From Tribonema minus (lineage: Eukaryota > Sar > Xanthophyceae > Tribonematales > Tribonemataceae): a stretch of DNA of 64,000 nt. Below the pieces are notes generated by a model. The model had not been told where the DNA came from. It did not search any database and saw only the letters and a list, made by a program, of their open reading frames with translations. Below are positions 6,601-63,536 of the stretch, piece after piece; position 1 is the first letter of the stretch; each line of letters opens with the position of its first letter. Both the position numbers and the translations under genes were made by a program. The stretch covers positions 186,001 to 250,000 of the forward strand of contig JAFCMP010000060.1 in NCBI GenBank assembly GCA_017506865.1, in the 5' to 3' direction.

Positions 6601-9600
6601 GGACATCATTCTTCGCGCGCCTGGTCGCGTGCGGTGCACAGCAGCGCTCGCCTTCGCTTCCACCGCGCATCATCATTTGCAAAGGGCCCTGGTGTTGTCG
6701 GTCGCACGGCGGCGCTCAACTTCAACTGCCAGCGCTCAGCAACCCTGCTGCGCGCTCGACGTCCAGCTGGCCAGCCCGCAGCCGTCAGCAGCAGGTCTGG
6801 CGCCGCGCGCCGCCGCTCCCGCGCGCCGCCGCACAGCGCAGCTGCGAGGCGTTGTTCAAATATGCATAATCATTCGCAGGACCCCGGTGCGATCGGTCGT
6901 GCAGCAGTGCTCAACTTCAAATTGCCAGTGCTCAGCAGTCGCCTCCAGTAGCACGGCAGTGCTCTGTACTCGATTCCGCGTCGTCAGAGCAGGGAGGCGT
7001 TCGCAGGCCACTATGTCCCTGTTGAGGCTGCTGAACCACTGGAGAACTCCGGTGAACCACTGATGAACTCACTGTGGATTGTCGCTTTCATCTTCAAGTG
7101 CCGGCGCTCAGCAGAACGCGTAGCGGCAGCTTCCTGCTGCGCGCTCGACGTCCGGCCGGCCAGACCGCGGTCATCGGCAGGTCTGGGGCCGCGCGGCGCT
7201 GCTCTCGCGCGCCGCTGCACAGCGCTCGCGAGGCGCTTTTTTAAATATGCATCACTACTCGTAGGATCCTGGTGTGGTTGGTCACACAGCAGTGCTCATC
7301 TTCACAGCGCCAGTACTCAGCAGCTGCCTCCGGCTTCGGGCTGCTGTGCGTGGCACTAGCGCATGTCAAGTCTCTGACGCCGCGCGCTGCTGCTGTCGAG
7401 CACTGCTGCTCTTGCGCGCTGCCGCCGCAGAGTGCGGCGAGGCGTTCCGGCCGCTGGTCCCAGGGATCGTCGTGACGCTGTCGTACGCCGTGGCGATCGC
7501 CTACGTCAGGTGCGCCACATGCGTATGCATGTATATGCATGATGTACATCGAGGGCCCGGTTATACTGCATACTTCGAAGTATGATGGCAGACATGGAGG
7601 CATGGGACAGCTCTTTGAGACGTTCCGGTTGCTGTTGGCGGGGCTCGTCGCGACGCTGTCGTACGCCGTCGCGTTTGCCGTCAGGTGCGCTGCGTGCATG
7701 TGAATGTTTTATACGCAAGGTTCCAAATGAACTATACATCAAAACAAATGGAAAGCGCTCTACTTAGGTGACAAGGCGTGGTTAGCCGTCATATCGAACG
7801 CCTTCCACCAATAACCGTGGTCGCCGCTGCGACATATCGGCAGCAGACATCAAGGGATGGGACAGCTCTCTGGCCTTTTAAAGTACGTCCGTACTTGACG
7901 ATGTCCATCGTGATGCTGTTGTGCGCCGTGCCGAGTGCTCCGCGTCGCGCGCTGCACACGCCCGCGTCGTCGGCAGCGGGCGCGGCCGCCAGCAGACTTG
8001 AACATCGAGTTGAAGTACCTTGTGCATCATGGCTCAGCGCTCAGCACCCCCCCCTGTCACGCGCGTCGCGCCGTCAACGCGCGCGGCGCGGACGCCACTA
8101 AGCTGTAACATCTCCTCGAAGTGCCTTCAAAAATTCGAATCAACACATGGCGCTGTGCTCAGCGCTTAACAGTTCATAAACCGCAGCTGCGGCGCTGACC
8201 GGCGTGCCTACACTGTTTCTGCTGCCCTTTGTCCGCTGCTGCGCGCGGCGCTCGCGCCATCGACGCTATGTCATGCAGCGCGGACGCCATCGCCAAGGGG
8301 TACTCGTGCGCCAAGGAGAGCAGCGCGGCGTGCAAGGCGCAAGGCAAGGCAAAGTGAGTGGTGCAGATCCGCACGTACGCGTCTGCGCCAGACGATATTT
8401 CTCCAAATCTGGTTTCCATGTGTGATGATAAGTTTCAGATCGCTGGTGCTGCGCGAATCTCGTGACGACGCACCGGCACGTCGCTGCGCAGCGAGTCGAA
8501 GCGAGTCGTGTGTCCAGCTGTCTGTGTGCGGTGGTTTGGTTCACAAGTAATGGACAATTTGTGACATCATTGTGTCCCCTCCGAATCCTGTTTGAACTTA
8601 CAAAAACCACTCAACTGGTGTGCTTTGTGCATCGGCGCTTCCGCCACGGCGTTCCCGTCAACGACAAGCACAACGTGCACACGGTACACACACGTGTTCA
8701 CGCGCATACATCACGCCAGCGCCCTGCCTGGCCATATAAAAGGCGCAAGCGCCAGGCACGGACATCACATGATGGTAGACGTGGCGCTGGCCGCTTGAAG
8801 CGTGACACTGAGCGTCTCGCCATACTTTTTTGACCCTCGCCCTTACCTAACCCCTATATTGAGCAGGCACTGCGGCGACCTGCCATCGCGCCCTTGTCCC
8901 TGCGCCAGTGCGCATCACTGCGCATCACGTCGAATACCGAATGACCCCTACCCCCCCAAACTCCCCCCCCACACCCCCCTACAGCCCGTGTGCCTTCCCG
9001 GGATGCTGGTGCTTGAAGCTCTGTCAGCCGCCTCATGCCCCCCCCCCCCCCCCCCCTTCTGCCACCCCCCCCCTGCAGCATGGCGCCTTCAATCACCTCA
9101 TGCCCTCCCCCTCCCCCCCCCCTCTGCCACCCCCTCCCCTGCAGCATGTGCGCCTTCAGTCGCCTCATGCCCCCCCCCCCCCCCCCCCCCCCCCCCATTC
9201 CCCCCCCCCCTCCTCCTGCAGCATGTGCGCCTTCCCCGCGACCCTGGACGTGCTGCTGTTCCAGATGCTCGCCTCGGTCATCTTCCCGGGCTTCACCATC
9301 AACCGCTGGGTCACGTTCGTGGGCTTTCTCGAGTCATCGCTCAACCTGCAGGACACGCTGCCGCCGGTTGTGTACGAATACCTACCCACCGCCGCGGGCC
9401 TCGCCCTGATACCCTTCATCGTCAAGCCGCTCGACGTGCTTGTGGAGAAGGTGCGTGCTTGAAGTTGAAGGGATTTGGGCGCGAATGTTCACTTGAAGTT
9501 GAAGTTGTCCCACGGGGAGTGGTGTACAAATACCTACCCACCGCCGCGGGCCTCGCCCTTGTACCCTTCATCGTCAAGCCGCTGGACGTGCTGGTGGAGA

Positions 9601-10478
9601 AGGTGGGTGCTTGAAGTTGAGAAGGATGGGCGCACATAGTTGTGAAGTTTGACTTGAAGTTGCCCACCACATGGGATTGGAGGCGCAGAGGCCGCCTGCG
9701 CAGGTGCAGGCGATGCACACATGACGCGAAGTCGGACTTGTAGCGCGTCGCAACGCGCCAGCTGATCAGCTGGAGAGAGTTACAAAAGTGTGCGGAGAGA
9801 GAGTTACAAAAGTGTGCGTTTGAGGTTGGACACGGAGGCCGCCCGTGCAGCTGGAGGCTCTGTACACATGCGCTTGTAGGCGGCCGCAACGCACGTGGCG
9901 ATGCACCTGCTGAACAGCTGGAGAGAGAGAGATACACAAGTGTGCATTTGAAGTTGGACCGGCAGCGCGCCGCGGCGCATGTGGCGCCCTCAGGCCTTGC
10001 AGCACCGGACCAGCAATACGTCTAGCGCTCAACTCGGCTGCAATTTACACTGCCAGATGCTAAGCTGTCTTTCAGGACGGGAGCCGCTGGCGGCTTGACT
10101 GTGGAGTCAGGTTTTGATGGATGGTGTCCTTCACACGTGCTTGGAAAGGGTTGTCTCGTTCTGCGGTGCGTCAGTGGGGGGCGGTGATGAGTAGGAGACG
10201 GGGGGGGGGGGGGGGATACACAGTGCAAGAAGAATACGTGCAACCTTCAACTCCTTGTACACTATTGATGCTGGGCCAGACCTAACGTGCATGCTTTACT
10301 CACATAAATCGCTGCCATACTACTGCCTCACCAGCGCTGCCTGCCCTTGGGTTTCGATGCGCCTTGTTTGCCTGTGCCGCAGATGCTGGACGTGACCGTG
10401 CGGCCGCTGCTGGTGCAGCTGTTCCCGCTCTGCGACCTCGAGGTGAGGCGATGCTCCGCGCGCATACTTGAAGTGTAA
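3688..10478 (+). CDS. MTFP1: MTFP1/MTP18-like fission process protein with a plastid-type leader
   Basis: Seven exons: 3688-3800, 4017-4081, 5507-5626, 7431-7509, 8279-8353, 9222-9450, 10383-10478. They total 777 nt (258 aa) and every junction is in phase. MTFP1 is an inner-membrane protein that promotes mitochondrial division. Family marks are IFRDTPVRYLGYANE, CGEAFRPLVPG, SYAVAIAYVSADAIAKG and MLASVIFPGFTINRW, followed by a last hydrophobic segment (TAAGLALIPFIVKPLDVLVEK). The N-terminus MRRPMLLSALSALALVVQHAAGFVNP is a signal peptide running into AAGF, like the ASAF-type plastid leaders of red-lineage complex plastids, so plastid rather than mitochondrial targeting is possible. Exons 3-7 rest on homology. 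Exons 1-2 rest on phase and leader shape and are less certain. The stop at 10476-10478 assumes the GTGAGG at 10443 is not used as a donor. Confidence 0.85.
4739..4782. repeat. Interstitial telomere-type repeat (TTAGGG)n
   Basis: About seven uninterrupted TTAGGG units in intron 2 of the MTFP1-like gene. Ordinary-looking sequence continues on both sides, so this is internal and not a chromosome end. Confidence 0.9.
5141..5420 (+). repeat. 21-bp minisatellite, about 13 units
   Basis: Units begin GCAGCGCTCAGGCGC and are mostly 21 bp long, with a few length variants near the end. As 21 is a multiple of three, the array stays open in two frames (AALRRSV-like and QRSGAVQ-like), but it sits in intron 2 of the MTFP1-like gene just before exon 3. 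I regard the open frames as a by-product. Confidence 0.85.
5725..5882 (+). repeat. Dispersed repeat, copy 2 of 3
   Basis: Lies in intron 3 of the MTFP1-like gene, in the same orientation as copy 1. It shares AGTTCTAGGTGACAAGG, GTGCCTTCCACCAATAACC and a matching 3' part (CACTAGTCAAAAAGGCTT against CACCAGTCGAAAAGACTT in copy 1). Confidence 0.65.
6819..7940 (+). repeat. Degenerate copies of MTFP1 exon 4 edges flanking the real exon
   Basis: Upstream copies of the acceptor edge lie at about 6819-6857 and 7208-7245 (CGCGCCGC..GCACAGCGC..GCGAGGCG against the native CCGCCGCAGAGTGCGGCGAGGCG). Downstream copies lie at about 7612-7690 and 7850-7940. The 7612 copy still reads ETFRLLLAGLVATLSYAVAF and keeps the GTCAG|GTGCGC donor, but lacks an in-phase acceptor. 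Confidence 0.7.
7741..7832 (+). repeat. Dispersed repeat, copy 3 of 3, shorter
   Basis: Lies in intron 4 of the MTFP1-like gene. It keeps AAAACAAATGGAAAG, TTAGGTGACAAGG, CCTTCCACCAATAACCGTGG and TCGCCGCTGC, but lacks the 3' third present in copies 1 and 2. Confidence 0.6.
9022..9221 (+). repeat. Repeated acceptor edge with C homopolymers before MTFP1 exon 6
   Basis: CTGCAGCATG..GCGCCTTC recurs at about 9074, 9138 and 9216, the last being the native acceptor. The copies are separated by pure C runs and CCTCATGCC; a weaker copy is near 9025. Each copy keeps a usable CAG acceptor. Confidence 0.75.
9514..9624 (+). repeat. Tandem copy of the 3' part of MTFP1 exon 6
   Basis: About 90 bp encode VVYKYLPTAAGLALVPFIVK followed by PLDVLVEK and a GTGGGT donor. 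This nearly repeats the native VVYEYLPTAAGLALIPFIVK end at 9370-9450, and the GCTTGAAGTTGA after the donor is copied too. No clear acceptor in the right phase precedes it, so it is probably a non-coding echo. Confidence 0.85.
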
Positions 10479-19100: not shown

Positions 19101-22100
19101 AGGAGTGTTGACCCGTATATGCCGGCACAGCGCGCCGCTGAGATGGAAATGACTGGTAAAACAGGGCACAGTGCCCATGCATTGCCGCTCTAAAAGCGAC
19201 AACAGCCTGTCGAGCTGTGGCCCACGCTCCATACAATAAGCGCCCACCCCTAGCTGCTGAGATTTGTTGCGCGACAATTGCGCAAGGCAGCGTGGTCTGT
19301 TGCGGGCGCAATGAGCGGCATGATACAAAGGTGATAGATGAGGCCCGCCGCAACGGGGTGGCATGCGAAAGTTGCGTTGGCCCAAGAACGGCAGCATGAC
19401 CTGTAATGCGTCCCCGCGCGGGCCCGGAACAGTACTGCAAGTGCTTAAGGTGCACCGCCTTGGCTCATACGGCTGGACGTCGCCCTCACTCTTGTACTTC
19501 ACACGCACACTTCACCTTTGTCGCTGAGACCCTTATCAGCGGCGCGCAGCAGCGCAATCGCACAAGCGGAGCGCGGCCGCTGCCGGAGCGCCAGTCAAGC
19601 GGCAGCATGCGAGAGGGGGCGTGACTGCCGACTGTGACTCACCCGCACGATGTTGGGGTGATGCAGACTCAGCAGCACATTGGTCTCGCGCAGCGCCGTG
19701 ATGGGGAAGCCCTCCTTCTGCGACTCCTTGTTCATCTTGACCTGGCAAACAGGGGGGAGGGGGTGGAAGAGGGGGGGGGGGGGGGAGGCAGCAGCGCACA
19801 GCAGCGAGCGGCCTTCGTCAGATGCGGCGTTCAACTGCGCGAATCAGACAGCAGCGGCGGTCGGTGCTGCTGCACGACGTTGGCGGCAGCTGCGCAGTTG
19901 CTGGCGCGTGGACGCATGCATGTGAACCGTGCTATCATCGGCAACAGCTCGTGCATTCCGTCACAGTGAACATCAGCGAACCAACACTCAGCATCCGAGG
20001 GACGCACTGAATGAGGGGGGCGGCCTGAACCACCAGTACATGGGCATATGGGCGTGCTCACTTGCGCACGGTTTCCAGTCCTGGACCGATGGCGGGCAAG
20101 CCCCCAAGCCAGATCATGTGCCGCAGGTTTGTATGCGACGCGGCGTAACGATGTGTTGCAACACCGAAACCTGTGCCCGCGGGGGGGCGCGACCGCCAGG
20201 GACATGTACTGATGGCAATGGCGCCGCCAACAAGCGACAACGACGCTTCTGAGCGTTGTGACAGCGCAACTTCACTATTGGTGAGCACAGTTCAAGTATT
20301 GAAAGCACGACGCGCCCCCATCTTCGTATGTACATGTGACATTGCGCGCTGCCCGCAGGGCGTCCATGGATTGGTGCCTCGAGCACGCGCCGACGGCGGC
20401 ATGATTGCCGCACCCAGACGTCATTATGGTCTCACGCCTCTCCACCACCGACTTGAAACAAAGATCGCCCGCCTCACGCTAGCGTCGCAGCTGCGGTCGA
20501 TCCCCTGAGCGACGTGCAGCTGAAAGCGTGACTGCAGGGAGCACAGCCAAGAGCATGGCAGCCGCCGCCGCCAGGCTGCCCCTGTGCATGTCCTCCAAAA
20601 ACGACGAGCACTGCTGCACTGCACATCATCTCCCAGCAACCCGTCACAGCACTCACAATCGCTGCCGTAATCGTCTTTGCTGCACTGCAGCAGCGCGGCC
20701 TGTGAGCGCAAACTGCGTGCCACAACCCTCACCCCCCCCCCCCATCCCCCTCCCAAACCACCCGCAACACAGCTGATACCGCGGACTTCTACTGGGATGC
20801 AAAGAGCAGCTCAGCGCTGCCCCCATCGCGCGCGCATACGGTAGGTATCGCGCCCCATGTACGTGCTCGATGGCGACCACGTCCCCCGTGACCTCGTTCC
20901 GCGCCACAGACGCCACGCCGTACTGAGCAGCGCTGCCCCATCGCGACGCATACGGTACGTATCGCGCCCCCACGCGTACCCACAAACACCATCGCGCGCG
21001 CATACGGTACGTATCGCCCCATGCCCCATGCACGCACCTGCTTGATGGCGACCACGTCCCCCGTGACCTTGTTGCGCGCCATGAACACCATGCCGTACGC
21101 GCCCTCCGAGATGTAGTTGATGCGCTCGTAATGCTCCACGCTGCGGCACCCCTGCACCAGCGGGTTGTACACGTCCAGCGGCTTTGGCGCCTCCTGCGGC
21201 TCCGGCTCTGCTGCCGCAAGCGCCTGCGAGATGCTCGTTCTGCCCTGGTCTCGCGAGAACGCGCTCCTGGTGGGGCGCGCAAAGCATACGAGTGCGATTT
21301 CAATACGTGTACCGTAATGAAGTACACGTGTACATGCTGGTGATGCGCGAACGCGCTCCTGGGTGGGGCGCAGCGCACTGACGCAACTTCAATACGCATA
21401 CCGTATACGTACATAGTGCATGTGTGTATGTTGGTCATGCGACAGCATGCGCCAGCCGGGGTTTGAGCCCAGACATGACGAAAGTACGGCATTCGTTGCC
21501 CGTGGAAGCAGATCGGCAGCGACTGATGCGTGTAGTGCAAAACATTGTGGGCCGTGACTGGCCCGCTGTGCACTATACACCTGTCACTGATGGCAGCAGC
21601 GGACCCATTGGACAGCGGTGACGGGCAAAGCGTGCAGCTATGCTGCGGCTGCTGTGTAAAGTCCAACGCACGTGACGTGCCGTATGCTGAGTTGAAGTCG
21701 TAAGCACAGCCCCCCAAGGCGGCGGTGGAAACCAGGCAGCGCAGTGCGGCGCTGACTGCAAGCTGTACATAGCTTGCCGCAACCGCAAGAGCGTATGCGC
21801 CTCGCACATGACGCTGTACGCACAGGCCTACAGGCATGTGTGTCGACGAAGAGCTGCGGACACGACTCGCGGGTGACTCGCCGTGCGCGCACCTTCGATG
21901 GCAGAGGGGCAGGTGTCACTGCTGGCACTACAGAGGGGGTGAACACTCCAGAGCGGATCGCGCTGTGCTCAGTGCGCGCTGCTCAGGCTGTCGGGCGCAC
22001 AAATTGACTGCAATCGACCAGCTTGAAGTTTCGATTGCGTGTGCTAGGTGTTTCGGCTGTCGACATCAGTGCTCGGAATCGGCCCCCTCCGTCGCTGCAC

Positions 22101-26080: not shown

Positions 26081-27888
26081 GCTCACGGCGCTGAGCCTCG
26101 CGGACAACGCGATCCGCGCGGAGGGCGCGCGCCACCTCGGGCGCGCGCTGCGCGAGAACGACGCGCTGCAGGCGCTGAACCTGCGGCTGAACCGGCTCAC
26201 GGACGACGGCGGGCGCATGCTGCTCGAGGGGCTGCGCGACAACGCGACGCTCACGTCGCTCAACCTCAGCGGCAACTCGCTCGGTGAGCGGCCGCGCGCG
26301 CGCGGTGTTGTGTTTTGCCTGACAGCGCTGCCTGCGCCTGGCTGTGGATGTTCGGTGGTCAGTGTGTCTTTGCGCGATGCCTTCGACGCGCGCATGCCTG
26401 CGTTGCCGCAAAGTGGTGTGTCGCACGCGCTACTGTGTGTTCTGCTTGGGCTTTTTGCCTGCGCCTGGCTATGGATGTTCGGCGATCAGTGCATCTCTGT
26501 GCGAGGCGTGCATGCGTGTGTTGCCGCAAAGTTGTGTGTTCACCGCCAACTGCAGCGGTACGCAAATTCTTCGCTGCCAGGTGCCATGTGACGTGTGCTC
26601 TGACAGTTCCACCCCGCCATCGCCCCCGCTGCGGCGTAGGGTCCCTTCCCGCTCTGCACACATTGCACGGAGCAGCATTCCTTCTTGGTTTGCCGCGGCA
26701 GGGCCATGAAATGCGCTATCTTGCCATTATCAGTGATGCCCACAAATGCCGCCACAGCATTGGCTCTAGCAGTGCCCTCGGCACTGCCACCTCCGCTGAC
26801 GTTGGGCACACAACATATCAGCAGCGGTTTGGTGGAATGCTGCTACATAGCCGTGCGATGCGCAAAGCAGCGTTCCTGCCGCCACCGCTGCTGCGCTAGC
26901 GCCGGCGCGCGACAGGGACTCCCTGCCTCGCGACGTAGCTCCTCAACACACATGTGTGGCGATGTTCGCCCATGTTTTCATGGTCGTTTCATTGGAGCGC
27001 TGCTGCAGCTGCGTCACATGCCCAATCAGCACACAAGTGCGCCTGGCCGTTTGCGGGCGCCTCATGCATGGCTGTACTGCGTGCGGTGACAAGCGTCACC
27101 CACGGTGGCACGGGCGCCGGAGCCTCGACGTCACAGGCGCCAACGTTGCGCTGATGTCTGGAATCGGCTTCGGTGCTTGACAACAAAGATGCAGACACCC
27201 GCCTTCATCTGCCGTTACTTGTGAGCTCGTCCGGGCACTGTTGTGACCCTGCTGCCGCACTTGCCTGCTTGACCTGTATCTCCTTCACCGCGACGTGCGG
27301 CAGCGCCGCCTCCGCCGCTGTCTCCACGGGCCGCGCCGGTCCGCGCGCGACGCGCATCGATGACGCGCGCGGGTACAAAACCCTTCCAGTCACTCCCACC
27401 CCCCACCCACCCACCCCCCTGCCCCCCCCGGCCCCTCACTTCTGTCCCCCGTCCCCCTAGTTTGCAGGGCGCCGTCGTCCTCGGAGCGCTGCTGCGCAGC
27501 CCCGGCACAGGCACTTCACCCCCCCCCCACCCACGCTCCCGCCCCCCCGGCCCCTCACTTCTGTCCCCCTTTCCCCTAATTCACAGGGCGCGAGACCGCC
27601 GTCGTCCTCGGAGCGCTGCTGCGCAGCCCCGGCCACGGCCTGCGCGTCCTCGACCTCAGCAGCAACGAGCTCACGGACGACGACGCGCGCACGCTGCGCG
27701 CGGCGCTGGAGGCGCGGCCGGCCGGCGGCGGCGGCGGCGGCGGCGGCAGCAGCGCCGGCGGCGCTCCCATCGTGAGCCTCGACCTGCGCGCCAACCGGCT
27801 GTCGGCGGGGCTGGAGGACCTGGAGGCGATCGAGGCGCGCGTGCACGCCAACGAGCTCGCGGAGCGCGGCGAGCGCGGCGGTGCGTGA
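23886..27888 (+). CDS. TCTE1: DRC5/TCTE1-like LRR subunit of the nexin-dynein regulatory complex
   Basis: Five exons: 23886-24164, 24360-24528, 25231-25434, 25807-26283, 27587-27888. They total 1431 nt (476 aa), all in phase. The N-terminal part has FLRPALDGLAKEQLSHKC and VAALYVFDENYWKRRC, then LTWKQLFFENYV, typical of TCTE1/DRC5. A leucine-rich repeat domain follows across exons 3-5, with LTYGVRNIGMKYERMLLGMK, LTHLDLSHNRIADHGARLLA and LRVLDLSSNELTDDDA. This protein bridges outer-doublet microtubules in motile axonemes, so the organism should be flagellated. Two Gly runs (about 26045-26081 and 27722-27748) interrupt the LRR domain. A TGTAA occurs 37 bp past the stop, a possible poly(A) signal. 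Confidence 0.9.
26309..26550 (+). repeat. Tandem duplication inside DRC5 intron 4
   Basis: Two copies of about 125 bp share TTTTGCCTG, GCGCCTGGCT.TGGATGTTCGG, ATCAGTG..TCT, GCATGCNTGNGTTGCCGCAAAGT and GTGTG. They are non-coding and follow the exon 4 donor. Confidence 0.75.
27415..27633 (+). repeat. Tandem copy of the DRC5 exon 5 acceptor and exon start
   Basis: Copy A (about 27423-27511) and the native sequence (about 27541-27633) share CGGCCCCTCACTTCTGTCCC, a CAGGG acceptor and CGTCGTCCTCGGAGCGCTGC plus GCAGCCCCGG. Copy A lacks 8 nt after the acceptor, so using it would shift the frame. Confidence 0.85.
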
Positions 27889-29527: not shown

Positions 29528-32500
29528 TCAGTACAGCTCGCCGGCGTCCTCCTCGATGATGTCGATGATGCGTATCGACGCGTCGCCGCCCGCGACGGCG
29601 AGCTTGAGCGGCGCGCCCTCGTCCTGAGCGCTGCCGCCGCCGCAGGGCATGAAGTCGAGCGTGAAGACGCCGCGCGAGAGGCCCGCGACGGTGCCCACGA
29701 GCGCGTTGCCGTTGCGCCGGTCGAAGACGCGCGCCTCGTTGGCGCCGCTGCCGCCCGCGGCCGCGTAGCGCGCGCGCGCGTCGCCGCGCCCGCCGCTGAG
29801 CTGCGGCGGCGCAGTGCGCATGCGACCGTGCGTATGAAGATGGTAAGTATATGTACTGTTTGTGCGCGAGGCGATGAGTGTGGGGAGGGGAGTGCGGGCC
29901 CTCTTGGCACATGGTACTTCGAAGTACGAGATCTGACGTATCGGTGTTGCTACCCCTTGCCCCAGCAGCTCCCAACAAACAGCAGCAGCAGCAGCCGCTG
30001 AGCGGCGGCGGCGCGAGAGCGCACGAGAGAGAGCGCAAAAGGGGCGGAGGAGAGTGAGCGTTGCGGTGGGGGGTGGGACGGGGGGGAACAGGGCTGGCGC
30101 GGCGTGTCGCGTGGCGCGGGCAATGAGCCGCTTGGTTGCGCGCATGCGCACTGACCCTCGCAGCTCCCAACGAACAGCAGCAGCAGCAGCAGCAGCCGCT
30201 GAGCTGCGGCGGTGGCGCGCAGCGCGCGTGCGAGCGTGCGAGGAAGATCAGCATCTGTACTGTTTGTGCGCGAGGCACTGAGCGTGGGGGGGGGGTGCGG
30301 GCCTTTTCGGCACGTGGTATGAGATTTGATCCTACCATCGTACCTATCCATGTTCCTATCCCTGCACCTGGCAGCTCCCGACGAACAGCAACAGCAGCAG
30401 CAGCGGCCGCTGAGCTGCGGCGGCAGCGCGCAGCGCGCGCGCGAGCGTGCGAGGAGGGTGAGCGCATGTACTGTCTGTGCGTAAGGCGATGAGTGCGGGG
30501 AAGGGGGGCGCAGTGTGCGTCGTGGCGGGCTTGAACCCGCTCTCAGCATGGTTTCAGATCCCACTGCATCATTGCGTCTGCACCCCTACCCCTGGCCTTG
30601 GCATTGCCAACACAAACAGCGGCAGCAGCGCTGGTGGCAGCACGAGCAGCCGGCGCCGCAGAGCGCGTCTGGGCCGCTGTGACGGCACTGCATCGACCTG
30701 TCCCCCCCCCCCCCCCCCACCGACCCACCCCCAACAACTTCCCTACAATTCCGTGACAGCAGTGCTCACCTGCGCAGCGTAGAGCAGCGTCGGCCGCGCC
30801 GCGCCGCCGCCGCCGCCGCCGCCGCTGCCGCCGTTCCACGGCACCGCGGAGATGCGCTTGCCGCTGCCGTAGTCCCACAGCTCCAGTGGATCGTCTGGCC
30901 GCCAGCTGCCCGTCAGCACCTCGCCGTTGCAGACGTCCAGGGCGTCGCCGCTGCGGCAGCGACAGAGCAAACGCAGGATTGAACTTTATGTTGGGAGTTG
31001 AGGTTGACGTTGGTTACAAGCAGGATGCGTACTTGCACCCCGACAGTTTGTTGGCAGGATGAGGATAAGAATTGGGGTCGAGGTCAAGGCTAGTTGTAGG
31101 CGGGTTGCGCACTCGCCCCCCGACTACTGGTCGACGTGGCAGCAGAGGAGCTGCAGCGCTTGCGTGCGCTCGCGACGGCGGCGTGCGAGCAGGGGGCGGG
31201 GGCGCGCGCGCGGCGGAGCGGCGTCACGGTCACGTCCGCTCTCAGCTGCGCCGCACGAGGTGCTGCGCGCCGAACTGGTGAGACGTCCCAGCCAGGCAGC
31301 CGATGGCCTCGCGAACGACCCGCTCCGCTGCAGCAGAGGTCGTCGCGCGCTGCTGCTGCTGCTGCTGCGGTCGCGAGCACGTGCGGAGACTGAGGGCCTC
31401 GGGGAGCCTGGAGGCGCTCGGCCGGAGTCAGTGCTCAGCGCCATCGCTGCGCCGGGGGGGGGGGGGCTGCAGTGCACAAAGAAACAGTCTTAGGTTGCGC
31501 GCCGGCGCGCGCCACCGCCGCCCACATGCGCAGCGCGAAGAGCGCGACACGCCGCAGCCCCCCCCCCCCCGCCACCACACACACACACACACACGCACGC
31601 ACCAGGTTCCACCTTCCTGCACGCCAGCGTTGCATGAGCCGGCCCTGTGCACATCATCGCATACGATACCTACCTGATGTGCGGCCCCGTAGATGGCGAG
31701 CACGGAGTGGCCCGCGCGCGCATGTCCCAGAACTGATTACAACGCAATGCTGCTAACTTGTCCCCCGCAAGCGCGCGCGCCGCTGCCCGCGCGCGAAATG
31801 TGTCAGCGCTAGGCACCGACACCCCGCTGTGCCCCCCCCCCCCCCCCAATCTACAGCCGCACTGCTCGTATGCGATACATGAGACGGTGCTCACATGCAT
31901 GTACGCCTGGTGTGCACGGCCAATGCACCGCGCGCACGCGGCGCACGAACCAGCGCTGCTGCGCACGCACCTGATGTGCGGCCCGTAGATGGAGCGCACG
32001 GGGGGCCCCGCTCGCGCGCGCGTCTCAGAACTGACAAGAACGCAATGCGCGCAATGCGCGCTGAAGTCGTACCGCACAAGCGCGCGCCGCTGTCCCCGTG
32101 CAAATAGTGCCAGAGCCAAGGCGACACCCTGTTGTGCGCCCCCCCCACACAAATTTACAGCCCGCACGGCTCGAACATGCCTTGCATGAAACAGTGCTCT
32201 CATGTACTTGCTTTGCATGAAACAGCGCCCCCATGCCAACCGCCCTCCCCCCCCCCCCCCACCCACAGCCCGCACTGCTCGCACTACTCGCTTGCCATAC
32301 ATGAGCTAGCGAGTGCTACAGTACCCACATACCTGATGTGCGGCCCGTAGATGGAGCGCACGGAGTGCCCCGCGCGCGCGTCCCAGAACTGCACCGTGTT
32401 GTCCCAGCCGCCCGTGAGCACCATGTCGCGCTCGCGCGGCACGTACTTGAGCGCAAAGACGCGGTTCGAGTGCCCCGCGGTGGCGCTCGCGCCGTAGCCC

Positions 32501-35500: not shown

Positions 35501-38500
35501 CACCAGGCTTTTGAAAAAAGCAAGAAACATAGTTCCACGGCATCGTCTGCGCGACACAATGCGCAGCGCACAGCAGTGCGCCTGTGGAGCCGCTCAAACT
35601 CTAACCCTTACCCTAACCCCAACCCTTACCCTAGTCCTGACCCCGACCCGACACATATGGGCCGCATGCCCGAAGCGCAGCGCGGTGCACAGCAGTGCGC
35701 TCGCGGCGGCGCCCCGGCCTTAATGCCAGCACTAACCCTTGCCCTAATTGTAGTCCCAACCCCCAATGCGCACCTCCCCTGAAGCGCATCGCGGTGCACG
35801 GCAACGGCGCCCTAGCCCTAACCCTAACCCTCACCCTAGTCCTAACCTCAGCCGCGCGCCTGAAGCGCAGCGCGGTGCACGGCAGCGCGTTCGCGGAGCC
35901 GCCCTAACCCTCACTCTGCCCTAAGTACCCTAACCCCGACCCTAAACCTGACCGTAACCCTATTTCCAACCCAAATCCCAACCCTAGACCTAGTCCTGAC
36001 CCAACCGCACACCTGAAGCGCCGCCCTAACCTGAATGCTTACCCTCACCCTAACCCTTACCCTACCTCTAACCCTAATTCAAGTCCCACTCCTTATCCTA
36101 GCCCTCGCCTCAACTGCGCATTTAAAAAGCAGCGTGGTGCATGGCAGCGCGCTCGCGGAGTTGTCCCAACCCTAACTTTAACCCAATCAAACCGTAATCC
36201 TGACCCTGACCCTAACCCTAACCCTAACCCTAACCCTAAAACTAACCCAATTCTCAACCCTAACCCTAGTCCTAACCCTAGCCGTGCGCACCTGAAGCGC
36301 AGCGCGGTGCACGGGAGCGCGCTCGCGGAGCTGCCCTAACCCTCGCCTCGCTACTCTAATGCTAACCCTAACACCCCCCAACCCCAAAGTCCCAGCCCTA
36401 ACTTCAACCCTACTTCTAACCCCCCGCCGCGCACCTGAAGCGCAGCGCGGTGCACGGCAGCGCGCTCGCGGAGCCGCCCTGCAGGTTGTACGCGAGGCGC
36501 CCCGTCGCGACGGCGAAGACGCGCACGGCGCCGTCGCCGCACCCCGCCGCCAGGAACTTGCCGTCGGGCGAGAAGCGCACGCAGAAGATCTCCGACGAGT
36601 TGTCGCTGACCGTGAGGCTCGCCTGCAGGCGCGGGCCGCCGGCGCCGTGCTTGCTGCCCGCCGCTGACGCTGGGGGGGCAGGGGGGGGGGGGGGAGAGGG
36701 GGAGCGGGGGAGAGAGGGGTGGTGTAGCGACGTTAGGGGGGGAGGGGAGAGAAGGTTGTGCTGTAGCGGCGGCATGTATCTGGCCGGCGTGCTCGCTGCC
36801 CTTGCCGCTGATGCTGCCGGGGGGGGGGGGGCGATGGTGGATGTAGCTGGGATATGAGCGCACGCGGCTGCATGGCAGGCGAGAGAATGTTCCGCTGCTG
36901 CGGCGGCTCTCCGTGGTGCCGGGGGGGGGGGCGGGCTGGAGGGAGGCGGGGGGAGGAGGGCATCGCTGTAGCAGCATTGGAGGGGGGGGTGGGGGAAAGG
37001 GGGCTGGTGCAGCCACGCCATGCACTTTGTGAACAGAATGCATCACGCCGCATGGCGCGCGCGAGGCCATTCTGCGCAGTGAGACGGAAGGCGGCGCGCA
37101 CGCGCTGGGGAGGTGGGCAGGGAGGGGGCTCTCGTTGCGAGGCGGGTCGCCAGAGCCGTGGCGACGTTGGAGCTCCCTGCGCCACCATTGCTGTCACGCC
37201 GCAACAGCGCGGCACTACAAGATGCATGCTACTTCGACTCAGGAGATACATGCATATGTCTGTATGTGCCTGACACACAACCCTAACCCTAACGCTAGGG
37301 ACCTGGCGTCCACCTGAGGCTGTTGCGGACGGCCACGTGACCCTCAGCGCCGTCGTGCATTTGCAGCTAACCACACGTTGTCGCCTAGAGCTCTACAAAC
37401 CTTCCATTTTTCTTGCACCACAGGTGGGACGGCGGCGGCGCTGTTTCGGCAGCTTTGCGGTGTAGCATGCATGGCATCCGCCTGGAGTGATTTGCAGGGG
37501 GTAACCCTGACCCTATCTAAATCCAAAGGCCAGGTGCCCCCACCTTATGAAAACTGTCCCACAGCCCCCCCCGCAACAGCAGGGGGCAGCACCAGCGGCT
37601 GCCGAGTCAATGCACAGTCTAGAGTTTGCCATGGATCATGAGTGGATGCATGACATCACCGTGGCTTGCGTCTGCGGTAATTCAGTGCGTGCGGTAGGTA
37701 GGGGTATCAGGAGCATTTGCCGCTGACGGAGCTGCTTCCAGCCGACGTGCGCGCAGCCATAGTTGAGGCCACTTTGTATGCAGGGTTTGCAGGTGTACAG
37801 AGCTTGCGACTCGAAAAAGCCCCCCCAAGGTGAAAGGGACGGGCATTTGTACACGAGCACAATGCTATGATTCAACCACAATTATTAGTTGATAAATTAG
37901 TGACGTGCCGAGCCTGAGTGTTGCAGATTCAGCGATTTGTAAGGCCCTGGACCGCCGCAATGGACCTGCCGGCACACGGTGACTGCATGCTAAAGATCCG
38001 CCTTGGTTTAAGCAATTGAGTCATCTTCAACCACTCTGTGCAGCACAAGCGGGTTAGATGTGCATGAGCTTCAACAGCCTGTTCTCGATCTTGTCTTGAC
38101 ACCGTGCGGACTGGCAACCAGATATTGCCAACTCACGGGTCGTAACACCGGCCAGGTTCAATTTGGCCAGAATCGCCTGCTACTCCAAAGCCTTCGCTAG
38201 TAAGAACCTACCGCTATTGGTTTGAGTGCAGTGGTGAAGCTTTTGTCAGGATTAATTGATACCTGTTGATGCTCACAAAGCTACCAAGAGAGCCAGGCCA
38301 ATTGGCGTGACTTGCAGCTAAATATTGCTGTTAGCTCAGAGTACATGATGCCTCAACACGCGTACAGCTTTGTGGCTTGCTGTTCTACTGGAGAAGTTCG
38401 TGTTCGAAGTTAGACGTCACGGAAGCCTGCATGAGATCCCATGGCGCGACATACATCCAGAGCCCTGAGGAGCAGCCATATAAGCGTGTCACTATGCATG

Positions 38501-52623: not shown

Positions 52624-54623
52624 CGGCTTCCCCGGCGCGATGCCCGTCAACATGTGCCGCGCGGACATCGCCGCGGTGCAGGGCGGAGCCTACTTCATCA
52701 GCGAGAAGACGGACGGCGTGCGCTACCTGCTGGTCGTGACGGAGGAGGGCGAGGGCGGCGGCGCGTGCGTGCTCGTGGACCGCAAGATGGGCTGCTTCGC
52801 GGTCGCGGGCGGCGCGGCGCTCGCAAAAGTGTTCGGCGCCGGGACGGTGCTGGACGGGGAGCTCGTGCACCGCAGCGGCGCGCACGGCGCGGGTGAGCTG
52901 CCGCGTCCATCGCGCACGGGGCGCGAAGTAGCTGTGCTGCTGTTCTGGTGCAGAAGCGCAGATGTGTTTTGTCCACTTGCAATGGTCACGTAGGTGCGGC
53001 GCTCGCTAAGGTGTTCGGCGCGGGGACGGTGCTGGACGGGGAGTTGTGCACCGCAGCGGCGCACCCGGCGCGGGTGGGTGGGGCATGCGTCGTTGTGCTT
53101 GCGGCGTGAAATGCCGGCGCCGCTACGCTCGTCCAGCAGAGCGACGTGCTTTGCGCAGCCGCCATGGTCATATGGTTGTCGTATTCCACCATGGTCATAT
53201 GGGCGTTGGATTCTACAAGCAGAAATGATGCGTGCGAACTGATTGTAGCTTCCCTGGCAGCATTCCACCCAATACCAATGCGACGCGCAATGCTGTGCGG
53301 CCTTCAACGGATGCCGTCGCTCTCAAAGGCGCAGCATATGCGCACCCAGAGTCTCCTGGAGACGCACTCTCGCGCTGAGATCCGCACAGGCGCGCTGCAT
53401 CTTTGCGCGTGGCATCGGCGGCCGCGGAACCCACGCCTCGAGGCTTTTCCAAGCCGCCTCGGCACCTTGGCACAGGCGCCACCGGCACTCGCCTGCTGCG
53501 CGAGCACGCTCGCCTCAGACGCGAAACTGCCACTCGGACTCAGCGCCGCTGCCGCCGCCCCCTCCCCCCCCGCCGCCGCGCCGCGTACGCACGCGCATGC
53601 GCAGACGGCGCCCCCGCGGCGGACGCGACGTTCATGGCGTTCGACATGCGGGTGCTGCGCGGGCGCCGGCACTCGCCTGCTGCATATGCGTGCTCACCTC
53701 GGACGCGGACACTTCCCTCGTACACGCGCATGCTCACCCCAGGCGCGACCGCCTCACTCAGACTCAACCCCGCATGGCTGCTGCTCGCCCCGCCGCGCGA
53801 TGCGTACGCGTACGCGCGCGCAGACGGCGCGCCCGCGGCGGAGGCGACGTTCATGGCGTTCGACATGCTGGCGCTGCGCGGCCGGCCGCTGCTGGCGGCG
53901 CCCTTCAAGCTGCGCTTCCAGCAGGTGGCGAACCAGATCACGGCGCCGTACCTGGCGGCGCTGGCGGGCGCGGAAGGCGCGCCCACGTCGCTCAAGGGCG
54001 TCCCACACCTGCGCTACGCGCAGAAGCGCTTCTTTGCGCGCTCGCAGGTGAGCGCGGCGGCGGCCGCGCCTGAAGCGTGTGGTGGGGCGCGGGGGGGGGG
54101 GGGGGGGGGGGGCTGCGTAGAGCCGGACCGTAGGCGCAGCATGTAGTTACTGGAGTGCGTGTCGTGTGTTTGTGCGGGGGGGGGGTGCAGCCACTGTCGC
54201 GCTGCACAGATCCTGTCGCAGATGCATGCTGCGTGCAGGCGCGCTTTCTTGCGGGCGCTCAAGCAGCAGTCGGCCAGTGACTTGAAGTTCATGCGCATTG
54301 AAGTCCGCACTGACAGGAAGCAGCGGCCGTCCCCTGCGCCAGCCACTCGCAATGCGTAACACGTCATCAGAGCACGACCGCCGTCATACCTCTCCATCTG
54401 CGTCACATCTTTACATGCCAGAGACGAAATCACGTCACCTGCAGTGACTGGCAGCATAGCGGCGCGTGCTGCCGTGCCCACGCGAGCCACTGCGCTGTGC
54501 GACTCGCACGTTCGGGCGGCACGCAGAGCGCCCGCACCGCCGCGCTGCACAGCAGCGCCAGCAGGCCTCTTGCTGACCGCAGCGCCTCAGCCTGCGACGC
54601 CGCTCACGGAGCGCTGCTCCCAT

Positions 54624-57718: not shown

Positions 57719-60700
57719 ATGAGCATTACCGCGACGGAGCGAGAGCGCCCTGGCGTTCTTCGTGGTCGTATCGAGAGCCGTTTCGTGCACATGCTGAAAA
57801 TCCTTGCGGGTGCCACATACTACTTCAATGGCGACGACATCACGCGCGCGCTTGCCGCATTCTTAGTTGTTTCCAATGCCTCTGCCAAATTTAGCACTGC
57901 CGTCGTCGCTGCGGTATTGCCGCTCGAGAACGGGATGCACGGGAACTCGCTGCGTCGCGCTCATCGTCGCCGCGCTGTCGCAGCGGATGGCCTCGTTTGC
58001 TGAGCACTGCGCGCTCAGCGAGCTACTGTCTGTGTAGCAATGTCTGATCGCTGCTGCTGACTCGTCAGCGGCAGCGACGCAGCGGCCGTCGGCATGCAGG
58101 AGCGCCACCTGAGACGTCACGGTGTTACTAGGGTTAAGGCCGGCGTTACGGTTGGGTTTTGATCAGAATCAGAATCAGAGTCGCTCTCATGTCCGGCGGC
58201 ACGTCGCAGAGGACGTCGGCGCTGTCGCGGTCGCCCCGCTCCCTCAGCTTGCCGTTGTCGTCCAAACCGCAGCGGGCTGCTCCACCAGCACATCAGTCAT
58301 GGCACGAGCAGTTCACACCATGCGGCACGCACACGCCACTGCAATGCCGCTGAATGACTCGTCATCCTTGATTTCCGTTCCAGCGCGGCGGCGAACTGCC
58401 GCTTGAAGGGCTCCGGCACGCTCCCTCAGCTTGCCGTTGTTGCCCAAATTGCAGCAGGCTGCTCGACCAGCCTTTCGGTCCTGGCATGAACGGTTCTCGA
58501 AGTGCAGCACGCGAGCGCCGCTGCACTGCCGCTACTAGCTCATCAGCTGCAATTCCCATCCCGCTTTGGCGGCTGATGGCCTTGTGAGGAGCGCTGCATG
58601 TCACCGGGTCCCCAGCGCCCCGTCTCGCCTGTCGCAATGCTCTGACTGTCCGCGCATGATGGGTGTTGTCAGTGCCTTGAGAGCACACCTCACCGCTCAG
58701 CGCTGCGCGTTTCATATCCGCGCCGCCCGCGGCCGTGAACCGCCTTCCGCACGTCATAGGCCACAATGTGCAGCACCCGCAGCGCGGCCCCCCCTGCGCC
58801 TCGCCACCCCGACCCCCGAACGATGTCACGTGAAGGCCTGTGATGCGATGCACGACACCACCGCACGCTACCATACTGCCGCAAAGAGGGCGCGTCGGCG
58901 CGATGCTGAGCTCCCACAGTGCCCCCCCCCCCCCCCCCCTCTCAACCCCGCCTTGAGCGACCACGCTGGCCTCGTCAGCACGACACCGCTGAGCACTGCA
59001 CTTGCCCGTCGCCCCCCCCCCCCCTCCCCACCCTCCCCCATGTGCATCAAACGCCGCTGTCAGGGCATTGGCGCAATGCCGAGCTCCCTGACTGCTCACT
59101 TCTTGTCACCTTCACCGAACCGCCCACACAGCGATCTATGCACCTGCTAGCCCACAAAGCCTTGCACAACACCACTAACGACTACCCTCAACCCCCCCTC
59201 ATCCCCCCCCCCCCCCCCCCCCCCCCGCGTGTGCACCGAACCGCCTCTGGAAGGGCATCGGCGCAATGCCGAGCTCCCTGACCCCCACTCCTTATCACCT
59301 TCACCGATCCACCCACACCCCAACCCTTGTAGCATGCTCGCCCATAACCCACAACAGCATTGCACAACGCCACTGAGCACCACCATCAACCCACCCCCCA
59401 CACGCAGCGAACCGCCTCTGGAAGGGCATTGGCGCGATGCCAAGTTCCCTGAGCGCATTTCCCCTCCCTTTTGACCTACACATCGACATCATGGCCTAGA
59501 AAGTCAGAAAACCTCCGAGCACCCCCCCCCCCCCCCCCCTTCCCCGCCCCCTGCAGCGAACCGCCCCTGGAAGGGCATCGGCGCGATGCCGAGCTCCCTA
59601 TTCCCCCCCTCCCCCCCCCCCTTGACCTGCATATTGACAGTATGGCCTATAAAGCGCGCCGCCGCCGAGTATTACCCTCAAGCCCCCTCCCCCCCCTTCC
59701 CCCCCGCCCTCCACAGCGAACCGCCTCTGGAAGGGCATCGGCGCGATGCCGAGCTCCCTGAGCGCGCGCCCCTTCACCTTCTCCGGCACCGTCTTCGAGC
59801 TCCTCCTCTTCGACGCCAAGGTCTGGGTGCTGCTCGGCTGGATGGCCATGTGGTTCTCGCTGCGCATGGCGGGCGTCGTGCAGGCGCGCGTCATCCCCGA
59901 CGTCGCCGCCAAGTACCTCGCGTACATGCAGGCGATCCTGTCGTTCCTCCTCGCCTTCTTCTTCAACAGGTGCGCGCGCTCGCGCGTGCGTTGAAGTTTG
60001 GCGAGAGCCGCTCCCCTGCACATACTCTGCGCGTTCCTGTCGCGACGTGCTGATGGCGGATGACACCGCCGTCCGCAGCGTGTCACTCGCATTCCTCCTC
60101 GCATCTTCAACAGCTGCGCGCGTGTTGAGGTGCGGTCGCGCCGCGCGGAGCGTCCCTCGGTGTCGTTCCCTGCACTTTTTTCTTCAACTGGTGCGCGCGC
60201 GTTGAGGTATGGGGTGACGCCGCGCTCTGACGCGCGTACGCAGCGTGTCACTGTCGCCACGTGTTGATGGCGGATGACAACGCTGTGGCGTGCGTTCGCA
60301 GAGTGTCACAATCATTCCTCCTTGCCTTCTTCTTCGACAGGTGCGCGCGCACGCATGTGTTCGAGGTGCGGTCGCGTCGCGCGGGGCGTCACTTGCTGTC
60401 CTCCCCTCTCGTTCTCTTCTCCTGCGCGTTGCAGCTGCGTGTTGAAGATGGATTGTGACCGCATTCGCAGCGTGTCACTGCCGTTCCCCCTCGTCTTCTC
60501 CTTGAGCAAGTGCCCCTGGTGCTGACCTGACCCCTGCAGCAGATACCTTACCTGTGCTGGCGCTGATGAAGCAGATGGCCGCAGTGCGGTGACTCCGACA
60601 GGGGGAAGGGGGGCTTTTTTTGGCTTCGATGGGGGCACATTCAACGACCCTCTCGATGCGCGTGGGTTGGGTCAGCGTTAGGGTTAGGGTTAGGGTTAGA

Positions 60701-62215
60701 GTTGAAGGTGAAGGCTCATTTTTGCCGCGTGCACGTCCCTGCAAGCGATGCGGACATTTCTGCAGCTTGTGTGCCATCAATCGGCACATGATGTCCTCCA
60801 TTCAGGAGATTGCCGCTTGCGGCGCTCCGCATCTGCAGCCACTGGCATGAAGTGTGAGGGGGGGTACTGCAGTATGCCCATGCAGTCAGCCTCTTGCAGC
60901 ACCAGCGCCTTTACTTGTTGCATTTCACAGCGCTTACGAGGTTTTGTGCTCTTTGCCATCGTGAGGCGGTGGGCATGCGCCCAGCACAACGGGTCAGGGT
61001 CAGGGTATGGGTCAGGGCTAGGACTGCTGCGCATCAGGGCCTGTGAGCCCCTTCCTCTTGGTGCCGCACATTTTCCAGCCACGGAAGTGTCAGCCACCGG
61101 CCAGCTGCGGGCAATTCAGCAGCATCCGGCTATTTTTGCGTCGTCTCACTTCCCTGGACGCTGCTGCCGCGCGCACATACATACCTACATACATGCCGTC
61201 TGCGCTCATTGGGCTACTGCGGTCCCGGCGCTGACTGCCGCTGCCCCCCCCCCCCCCCCCCTCCCCTCGCAGCGCGTACAACGAGTTCAAGGAGCAGGGC
61301 CGCGCCGCAATCGCCGCGTCAGACCCGGCGACCACGGTGAGCGTGGACTGAGCGCTGATGCAGTTCACGATTGATCCAGCGGTGTACTCGCGCCGCCGCC
61401 AATGTCACAGTTCATGAAGCTTGTGTAGGGGCAAGTTGATGAACTTCACGTCAGGTCCACTGCGCTGCGGGGGACCGAGTCGTTTCGCGCGCGCAGGCGC
61501 AGCCTGATTACACACGGGCGCGCATTTTGCTGTGGTGTCGGGTAAAGGTTAGGGTAAGGGCATCCTGGTGACGGCGGCGAGCACGCTGAGCGCTGACGCG
61601 TCGGGCCGCGAAAAAACAAAGAAAAAAGAAAAAATGAATATAACTTCAGAAAACAATAGTCTAAAAGACTTGTACCTAACTGTAAACTTTTCGTACAGAG
61701 TTATTCCTTAGATTTGATTTTAATGCCTACAGGTTCTCGTTCTCTGAAGTTTTTGGAACTTGAAATATCATTTTTATCTTGATGCACGCCCTGCCTTGTA
61801 GCGATTCAATGGTGGTGCGCAGCGCGCACTCCCAGACATGAGAGAGCGGGCCTGTTGGGAGTAGTGGCAGTGCGCTGCGGCAGCAGCGAGTGGGCAGCGC
61901 TCGGCATCAGAGATGGGCGAATGCCACGACTGGCCGCCCACCACGCAGCTCGTTTTGCAGGTTCCCGCTCGGACAGTGCCAACCTGCACCTGCGGCGCGC
62001 GCCGTACGTCCAGGAGTCCACTTATGTAACCTCACATGCGACGCTCCATAAACAAGTGACTCTCCACCGCCCGCCCCCCAGGCGGTCGTCACGGCCAAGC
62101 TGTACCTGCAGCACGCGCCGGACGTCCAGGAGCGCATCGTGTGGCCATTCATCTAACCTCACGTGTGACGCTCATTGCGGCCATCTATCGCAACCTCACG
62201 TATGCCGCTCCCCCC

Positions 62216-62246: not shown

Positions 62247-63536
62247 CGCCCCCAGGCCGTCGTCACGGCCAAGCTGTACCTGCGGCACGCGCCCGACGTC
62301 CAGGAGCGCATCGTGCGGCTCATGAACGCCGCGCACTACCTGAGCTGGATGGACCTCGCCGACTTCTACAGCTGGAGCGAGCTGAGCGAGCGCGGCCTCC
62401 TCACGCAGGCCGAGATCGACGTCCTGCGCAGGCTGCCGCACAACAAGAAGTGCGTCATGGTGGTCATCTGGGCGTGCGACACGGTCGTCGCGTACAAGCG
62501 CGTGGAGGTGAGCGCTAGGCGCAGTTCTCAAAGTTTGTGGTTTTCGTTGGCCCCCCCCCCACGTCCCATTTCCACGCACGGCGCCCATGATTCTATTGAA
62601 TTCGTAGTTCTTGGTGGTTTCGTTGGCGGGGAGCGGGGGGGGGGTACCCCTCCCCCCCGCCCATATCCACCGCCCGTGGCGCCCATGATTTCTTTGAATT
62701 CGTTTGGGTGGTGTGGAGGGGTGGGGGCTTCCCTCTGCTCGTTTGCCGCTTTGCACGCGCTCACCGTGTTGGACCGCCTGTACACACACCACAAATGCGC
62801 CATACTTTGAAGCTGCAAGGCCAGCGCACGACGCGCTGCGCCAGATCTGCAGATAGCGCAGACGGTCAGGTGTGAGCAAACACACGCGCGCCACCCGCCG
62901 CCGCTAGTGACGCAAGTGTTGCAGTGAGGCGCACGCCGGCTACGGTCCGTGTGTGCCAGGATACCAGCGCACTCTTTGCCGTCGATATGAAAACGTCATT
63001 CTCACGCACGCTGCGTGGACATCTGTCTTGCTGGCGCAGATCGATCAGCTATGCATCAGTCGCTTCCGTGAGGCACATCGCGTGGTGGAGCCCACAAGCT
63101 GACATGTGTGTACTCATGGACTCTTCTTCATGAAGGCCCCAAAGGGGGCCGGCGCTTCCGTGTCTTCCTAGGGTTAGAATTATATGCAGCCCTCACATCA
63201 ACCCAATCATCAACAACAAGTGCAGTATTGAATTGCCGCGCGCTTGCATGGACATCCGTCTTGGTGGCGCAGATCAGTCAGCGACAGATCAGTCACTCGC
63301 TGTATGATCGGTGTGCAGAGAGCGACGCAGTTGTACAAACGACTTGCACAAGCTGATGTGTACATGGGCTTATCCCTCACAGCTGATGTTCCGATGTTCA
63401 ACGACAACTGTCGAATCGCCACGCCTGCTGCCACAGGATGCGCGCCTCCAGGCGTACAGCGCGCTGCCGAAAGAGCAGCAGACGCCGGAAACGAAACCGC
63501 CGAGCCTCAACGGCGAGGCCCTCAAGGGCTTGCAAT
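57719..63536 (+). CDS. Polytopic membrane protein, bestrophin-like, 3' end outside window
   Basis: Exons: 57719-57809 (tentative first exon), 59717-59969, 61273-61336, 62256-62507, 63437-63536, then an intron runs to the window edge or beyond. All phases agree and 253 codons are visible. Two or three hydrophobic spans are seen (VFELLLFDAKVWVLLGWMAM, AILSFLLAFFFN). A soluble part follows with AYNEFKEQGRAAIAA, DVQERIVRLMNAAHYLSWMD, SERGLLTQAEIDVLRRLP and CVMVVIWACDTVVAYKR. The order (membrane span, short loop with an N.AYNEF-type stretch, helical domain with an RGLL..AE..xLR motif) resembles algal bestrophin-family anion channels. I assign this by general pattern only. Exon 1 uses a weak GTGCCA donor; its reading frame also stays open past it, so the start is uncertain. 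Confidence 0.6.
58896..59605 (+). repeat. Five copies of the 5' edge of exon 2 of the bestrophin-like gene
   Basis: GCGAACCGCCTCTGGAAGGG followed by CATCGGCGCGATGCCGAGCT and CCCTGA recurs at about 59555-59600, 59405-59453, 59230-59282, 59052-59093 (partial) and 58896-58920 (short). The native edge is at 59714-59762. Period is about 150-180 bp. Copies are separated by C runs and become shorter and more diverged with distance from the exon. Confidence 0.92.
60083..60512 (+). repeat. Four copies of the 3' edge of exon 2 of the bestrophin-like gene
   Basis: TCCTCCTCGCCTTCTTCTTC followed by AACAGGTGCGCGCG is echoed at about 60083-60118, 60160-60205, 60300-60347 and 60468-60512, each preceded by GTGTCACT-like sequence. 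The native edge is at 59941-59990. The 60300 copy keeps a complete CAG|GTGCGC donor. Confidence 0.88.
60677..60700. repeat. Short interstitial TTAGGG repeat
   Basis: Four adjacent TTAGGG-type units in the long intron 2 of the bestrophin-like gene; a GGGTCA variant array lies at 60991-61021. Confidence 0.8.
61962..62146 (+). repeat. Two copies of the 5' edge of exon 4 of the bestrophin-like gene
   Basis: CAGGCGGTCGTCACGGCCAA followed by GCTGTACCTGC and CGGACGTCCAGGAGCGCATC at 62087-62146 is nearly identical to the native exon start (62253-62312). An older copy at 61962-62014 keeps ACCTGCGGCGCGCGCCGTAC and GTCCAGGAG. Both are followed by CATNTAACCTCAC-type sequence. Confidence 0.9.

Follow-up and report, generated by a model that had tools for sequence, protein, structure and literature searches.

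Tandem copies of exon ends with their splice sites in introns of the yellow-green alga Tribonema minus

Copies of exon ends in the window

The window analysed here, a stretch of 64,000 nucleotides of contig JAFCMP010000060.1 of the yellow-green alga Tribonema minus, contains genes whose introns carry tandem copies of the end of a neighbouring exon together with its splice site. Such copies were present in all four window genes with checked junctions, namely a WD40 gene, an MTP18-like gene, a capping-enzyme gene and a putative bestrophin-like gene, the last (with an exon at 59717-59969) being so called from our reading of its translation and not from a family search. Two further loci, a kinase donor and an acceptor near 27387-27633, were recognised by eye, which brings the total to the six genes that the first-pass annotation of this DNA had given as a minimum. 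Exon-edge tandem copies are a real and widespread feature of the T. minus genome, as the wider sample described below shows.

The WD40 protein of the window is 99% identical to the annotated T. minus protein P0121, and the junctions of this gene were obtained by exact spliced mapping of P0121, with GT-AG boundaries. For the MTP18-like, capping-enzyme and bestrophin-like genes, junctions were placed by reading frame and GT-AG. The terminal 50 bp of each exon served as probe in a local alignment (Smith-Waterman, SW) within its own intron, with score cut-offs of 40 and 80. The window was also scanned at SW≥30, and 11 of the 24 edges scanned in this way gave no match whatever. The following features were identified.

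36435..36669, minus strand: exon 2 of the WD40 gene (P0121 mapping, GT-AG), whose donor end at 36435 gave rise to the array in the following intron
35561..36337, minus strand: six decayed copies of the WD40 exon 2 donor end, at 35561-35593, 35672-35714, 35779-35806, 35860-35905, 36129-36160 and 36292-36337 (26/33 to 45/46 identical, SW≥30)
34870..35413, minus strand: three copies of the acceptor end of WD40 exon 3 (exon 34543-34774), at 34870-34919, 35036-35078 and 35373-35413
32602..33780, minus strand: six copies of the acceptor end of WD40 exon 4 (exon 32333-32508), at 32602-32646, 32786-32835, 32929-32973, 33105-33145, 33355-33399 (score only 35) and 33734-33780
31674..32018, minus strand: two copies of the WD40 exon 4 donor end, at 31674-31721 and 31971-32018 (44/47, 45/48)
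9519..9602, plus strand: one copy of the donor end of the MTP18-like exon that ends at 9450 (Pfam MTP18 match on the exon)
52993..53073, plus strand: one copy of the donor end of the capping-enzyme exon that ends at 52892
53605..53652, plus strand: one copy of the acceptor end of the capping-enzyme exon that starts at 53824
58892..59599, plus strand: five copies of the acceptor end of the bestrophin-like exon that starts at 59717, several with a C-rich tract, at 58892-58915, 59049-59091, 59237-59281, 59408-59456 and 59557-59599
60312..60503, plus strand: two weaker copies of the donor end of the bestrophin-like exon that ends at 59969, at 60312-60340 (26/29) and 60478-60503 (22/26)
61978..62131, plus strand: two copies at a later bestrophin-like acceptor (exon starts at 62256), at 61978-62015 (33/38) and 62082-62131 (47/50)
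20823..21098, minus strand: kinase gene, donor end (at the higher coordinates) and one intronic copy, junction by eye only
27387..27633, plus strand: acceptor-like region and one upstream copy, offset by about 121, junction by eye only

Self-comparison of the window yielded 86 local direct repeats within 4 kb. In the array derived from the WD40 exon 2 donor, the copies are separated by telomere-like CCCTAA filler.

Interstitial telomere-like repeats (GGGTTA / AACCCT) were observed in the window at 4740-4781, 16833-16874, 35211-35302, 36168-36280 and 60664-60703. Some of them lie inside introns and between exon-edge copies, and are possibly traces of break repair. Long poly-C tracts were found at 9170-9210, 25764-25804 and 54626-54656; the first and third of these lie shortly before acceptors.

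Frequency of exon-edge copies and controls

The genome searched was a 158 Mb assembly of 554 contigs, with contigs of up to 1.97 Mb. The wider sample consisted of 26 loci found by profile searches, and is thus not random: all 10 profile-matched chaperonin loci were taken, and the 11 kinesin and 5 HSP70 loci are part of longer lists. At least one intron was obtained from 25 of the 26 loci, the repeat-rich chaperonin locus L035 giving no checked intron. In total, 83 introns were checked on 27 sequence records, including the window, whose two strands were counted apart. Junctions were called by in-frame joining of neighbouring profile matches, from an annotated or transcript-derived protein, or from the window reading frame. 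When compared to independent proteins, the called junctions agreed in 6 of 7 cases in CCT-alpha and 4 of 4 in CCT-gamma; the seventh CCT-alpha junction had jumped a small exon and was replaced. In the fetched loci, 12 exon pairs were passed over because their profile matches were not continuous, 7 were junctionless and 4 of 69 junctions, in addition to the replaced CCT-alpha one, lay below the score cut. The corresponding numbers for a second junction set, which includes the window genes, were 7 skipped pairs, 1 junctionless pair and 3 of 9 junctions. One capping-enzyme donor was moved by one base before the edges were counted, and additional CCT-gamma introns from protein mapping were left out of the counts. 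The kinesin loci L042 and L043 had been chosen after the profile search had displayed an exon-edge copy there; a less biased subset of 69 introns was therefore defined as the sample minus the window and these two loci.

At SW≥40, a copy was found in the own intron of 25/83 donors and 16/83 acceptors, in agreement with the earlier claim that copies occur on the 5' and the 3' side, and 33 of the 83 introns carried at least one. The less biased subset gave 18/69 donors, 11/69 acceptors and 24/69 introns. Outside the window, copies were present in chaperonin, kinesin and HSP70 loci, and in the annotated CCT-gamma gene they occur in 4 of 8 introns. A chaperonin gene on contig C5 matches the annotated T. 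minus protein P0241. Pfam chaperonin and kinesin profiles themselves match copies, for example on C5, C51, C135, C246 and C511, and such matches had to be removed by hand in exon chaining (4 chaperonin, 2 kinesin). Since profile searches list these copies as separate exon-like matches, automatic annotation might call false exons there.

At the same cut-off, the probes matched the reverse complement in 0/166 cases, the introns of other loci in 23/6640 and dinucleotide shuffles in 0/3320, and pure chance or low complexity was rejected on these grounds. Edges were also compared with random intron points, a test set beforehand as the one on which the pattern should stand or fall, and edges scored higher: 41/166 versus 386/2551 at SW≥40 (1.6-fold) and 17/166 versus 38/2551 at SW≥80 (6.9-fold). 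In the less biased subset the excess was again 1.6-fold at SW≥40 (29/138 versus 262/1959) and 5.4-fold at SW≥80 (8/138 versus 21/1959). The HSP70 genes alone gave 7/46 versus 47/577 at SW≥40, but showed no edge excess at SW≥80 (0/46 versus 6/577). The random-point rates show that edges exceed interior points, yet also that the introns themselves are rich in local repeats. The loci and the window contain 337 repeat pairs scoring 50 bits or more, of which 67 cross a checked edge, 33 fall within a checked intron and 237 are in unannotated DNA; for pairs at least 88% identical and less than 400 bp apart, the numbers are 23, 3 and 39.

The edge excess at both cut-offs and these similar, close pairs argue for duplications made preferentially at exon edges by a directed process (splicing, R-loops or nucleosome position), as does the fairly narrow spacing of the copies. 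The absence of an edge excess in HSP70 genes at SW≥80 argues against it, and further evidence on this possibility is given with the decay of the copies.

Two window copies were searched genome-wide and matched only themselves and their own exon edge, in a search that skips simple repeats and common words. For these two copies, no second haplotype or paralogue was found that could have served as template. The locality of both copies, together with the scarcity of exon ends in the introns of other loci, speaks against mobile elements of the introner type, with which the arrays share a position in introns and the presence of splice sites. Introners were rejected on locality (2 of 2 copies searched), no dispersal being found, and we regard such an origin as hardly conceivable. 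Introners likewise alter intron content on a genome scale, but they are mobile families that copy into many genes (PMC9860276), whereas the algal copies are local. The main text of that paper gave no hit for the terms Tribonema, stramenopile, Ectocarpus or tandem.

Anatomy of the arrays and likeness to amphioxus mirages

The exon part of the copies measures 27-135 bp, with a median of 47 (69 alignments scoring at least 60), and is 71-100% identical to the exon. The first-pass annotation had given 25-90 bp. Spacing between copies has a median of 161 bp, within the period of roughly 100-200 bp given earlier, but ranges from 78 to 710, mostly 78-231; the long spacings probably hide undetected intermediate copies. 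One to five copies per edge were detected at SW≥40 and up to six at SW≥30, where the first-pass annotation had counted one to seven. That farther copies are more diverged and shorter holds as a trend: the nearer copy was more similar to the exon in 48 of 68 unequal pairs, its exon part was the longer one in 38 of 61 unequal pairs, and 10 of 20 arrays with several copies were monotonic. As judged by eye, the copies have a common junction between intron and exon piece in at least 8 of these 20 arrays. Such shared junctions suggest one founder duplication that was later amplified, not many independent anchored events.

The first-pass annotation knew of no described system with this pattern. However, amphioxus mirages have already been described, as tandem repeats lying across an exon-intron boundary, their units measuring 10-160 bp and including some of 150-160 bp (PMC3087553). 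They are reported in globin, Adh3, troponin C and PGBD5 genes (PMC3087553, PMC3902484); in lancelet PGBD5, repeats of 60 and 108 bp cover splice sites, and mirages are also mentioned for troponin C (PMC3902484). Undisturbed splicing, by reverse transcription PCR, and differences in copy number between haplotypes are reported as demonstrated there (PMC3087553, PMC3902484). The algal repeat unit likewise includes the exon-intron boundary, occurs at both 5' and 3' boundaries and falls in the reported size range, though about half of the spacings exceed 160 bp. We thus file the algal arrays, by their structural features, as the same kind as amphioxus mirages in an unrelated lineage. Unlike the reported mirages, they belong to a stramenopile and not to an animal, they were counted over a sample of introns where amphioxus cases are reported gene by gene, and their copies are often more decayed, with exon-derived parts outlasting intron parts. 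In the open-licence literature searched, as far as its texts were available, mirages were found only in lancelets. A structure known from single amphioxus genes is now placed in a distant eukaryote, and a frequency of 24/69 in the less biased subset allows intron lengthening by local duplication to be counted, dated and compared between species.

Two other reported processes are related. Intron gain by tandem duplication of AGGT-bearing exon segments also involves local exon duplication with splice-site-like motifs (PMC3443670, PMC2891723), but creates a new intron inside an exon, where the algal process lengthens an existing one. Daphnia neo-introns, with repeats ascribed to staggered breaks, show direct repeats linking exon end and intron and a proposed passive lengthening (PMC4202315); those exon-intron repeats are 4-12 bp long, as against 27-135 bp of exon in the alga.

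Decay of the copies and origin of the arrays

We propose, with a probability of roughly 70%, that the arrays are mirage-type local tandem duplications across the exon-intron boundary, which lengthen introns and whose copies decay as passengers. A local tandem duplication, mostly of about 80-230 bp, would span the boundary and take in tens of exon bases and, by subtraction, about 100 intron bases. The real exon would retain its own splice site while the other copy would land inside the intron, so that the intron would grow; slippage or unequal exchange would later multiply some founders into arrays. Candidates for the duplicating process itself are fill-in at staggered breaks, template switching and unequal exchange, and the copies are presumably neutral, non-coding passengers. 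Since the exon does not decay while its copies do, a copy would remain recognisable long after its intron part had been lost. To this extent, the earlier idea of intron lengthening by boundary-spanning tandem duplication, leaving splice-like sites behind, is supported.

Splice sites and reading frame were evaluated in the copies. From 82 copies at 41 edges, 3 with fewer than 25 aligned exon columns were dropped, which left 79 at 39 edges. GT is kept in 33/41 and AG in 31/34 copies with both bases aligned, about as predicted by the divergence of the exon parts, and several copies have lost one or the other. The exon-derived parts contain 21 gaps in the 79 copies, and 15 of the 16 counted in 50-bp probes shift the frame. 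Two annotated proteins, WD40 and CCT-gamma, align with the exons and leave out the copies; the sole transcript-derived protein, P0001, belongs to a gene in which no copy reaches SW≥40. The retention of GT or AG in most copies and the coding-like pattern of the nearest ones (see below) would be consistent with a function as alternative exon ends or as spare splice sites. A junction that would allow in-register replacement of the exon end by the copy, however, exists in only 1/39 near and 1/40 far copies, against 9.8% and 7.8% in controls, that is 2/79 against about 7 expected by chance. With the frameshifting gaps and the lost splice sites, this makes such a function very unlikely, and it was rejected as an explanation.

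Far copies depart from the exon at 55/639, 38/640 and 94/638 sites of codon positions 1, 2 and 3, a ratio of position 3 to positions 1/2 of 1.92 (1.55-2.37), near the value of 2 expected of a free copy compared with a constrained exon. The less biased subset gives 60/762 at positions 1/2 and 68/379 at position 3 in 24 far copies, and 43/868 and 65/435 in 27 near copies, so that the near-far contrast described next is weaker without the window and the two loci picked for their copies. The diverged, third-position-biased copies also bear on a possible assembly artefact, which is worth considering because one amphioxus mirage was reported as misassembled in the draft genome (PMC3087553). Sequence duplicated in error by the assembly would show near identity over its whole length; the identity range of the exon parts, the many loci concerned and the length of the contigs further make an artefact highly improbable.

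Several observations weigh against simple passenger decay. First, the nearest copies differ from the exon at 31/698, 25/699 and 99/691 of positions 1, 2 and 3 (4.4, 3.6 and 14.3%), a coding-like ratio of 3.3 (2.2-4.8), with 90 synonymous versus 54 other changed codons. Second, exon parts and flanks of the same copies do not match in divergence. For 32 nearest copies of single period, the difference is 3.0% at positions 1 and 2 and 13.6% at position 3, whereas their intron flanks (the 50 bp adjoining the splice site) correspond to a divergence of 0.25-0.30. Only 10/32 of these flanks score above 31, against 29-31 expected under equal decay, and over all ages 23/77 flanks pass against 64-70 expected. 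These are local-alignment scores, global alignment having been uninformative since unrelated flanks scored alike. Compared copy to copy, exon-derived parts diverge by about 0.15 and flanks by about 0.3. A direct comparison (exon part 7.5%, intron part 16.1%, 32 copies) is biased by the use of alignable flanks only and was not relied on. In our judgement, sampling bias toward well-kept exon parts is too weak for a gap of twofold or more. Third, simulated edge/point ratios under uniform, symmetric-conversion and edge-biased duplication were 0.2-1.9, below both the 6.9 observed at SW≥80 and the 5.4 of the less biased subset, in toy models that leave exon-derived DNA to decay no more slowly than the rest. 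As simulated in this way, uniform tandem duplication does not reproduce the enrichment observed at high similarity, whether or not symmetric conversion or edge bias is added, and was set aside.

The good keeping of the exon-derived pieces is, to us, the most interesting part of these data, and preferential preservation of these parts may account for much of the edge enrichment. It is not established that duplications start at edges by preference, because within a copy the exon-derived piece persists longer than the intron part, and a duplication of like age confined to the intron would escape detection. The shared junctions point to few founding events, and even a six-fold edge-biased birth yielded a simulated ratio of only 1.4-1.9. 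Edges are enriched, but repeated duplication anchored at boundaries, as first proposed, is not shown, and we consider a directed process unlikely.

Young-looking exon parts beside old flanks could also mean that the exon rewrites its copies by gene conversion or template switching, or that copies are under indirect selection through exchange, which would be compatible with local tandem duplication. The divergence is star-like (78 copies): at positions 1 and 2, copy-copy values are 0.157 and 0.144, exon-copy values 0.088 and 0.080. The surplus of third-position differences in the nearest copies points the same way, and concerted evolution is reported for an amphioxus mirage (PMC3087553). On the other hand, the differences are not patchy, the longest identical run being 23.3 versus 22.7 expected in 34 near copies and 19.9 versus 20.0 in 32 far copies; symmetric conversion did not lift the simulated edge/point ratio, and all six gaps in near copies shift the frame. 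Rewriting is, on balance, rather unlikely. In a quite unlikely extension of it, exons would act as master copies, exchange with intronic copies either rewriting these or exposing their mutations to selection. If true, intron DNA would evolve in a coding-like manner, most strongly in the nearest copy, while flanks drift freely, and the process would shape a large share of the introns of this genome. The contrast between well-kept exon pieces and lost flanks allows recombination of an exon with its own relics to be tested directly.

Other repeats were observed in the window. Two minisatellites, at 5139-5368 (unit 21 bp) and 44121-44342 (26 bp), with higher-order periods of 107 and 103 bp, are not linked to a checked exon edge. 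A long open frame with leucine-rich repeats (41020-42198, minus strand) has an internal repeat of 75 bp, which is coding repetition and not an exon-edge copy. A dispersed repeat of 60-100 bp occurs in three places (1284-1382, 5726-5824 and 7765-7830) and is 79-87% identical between them.

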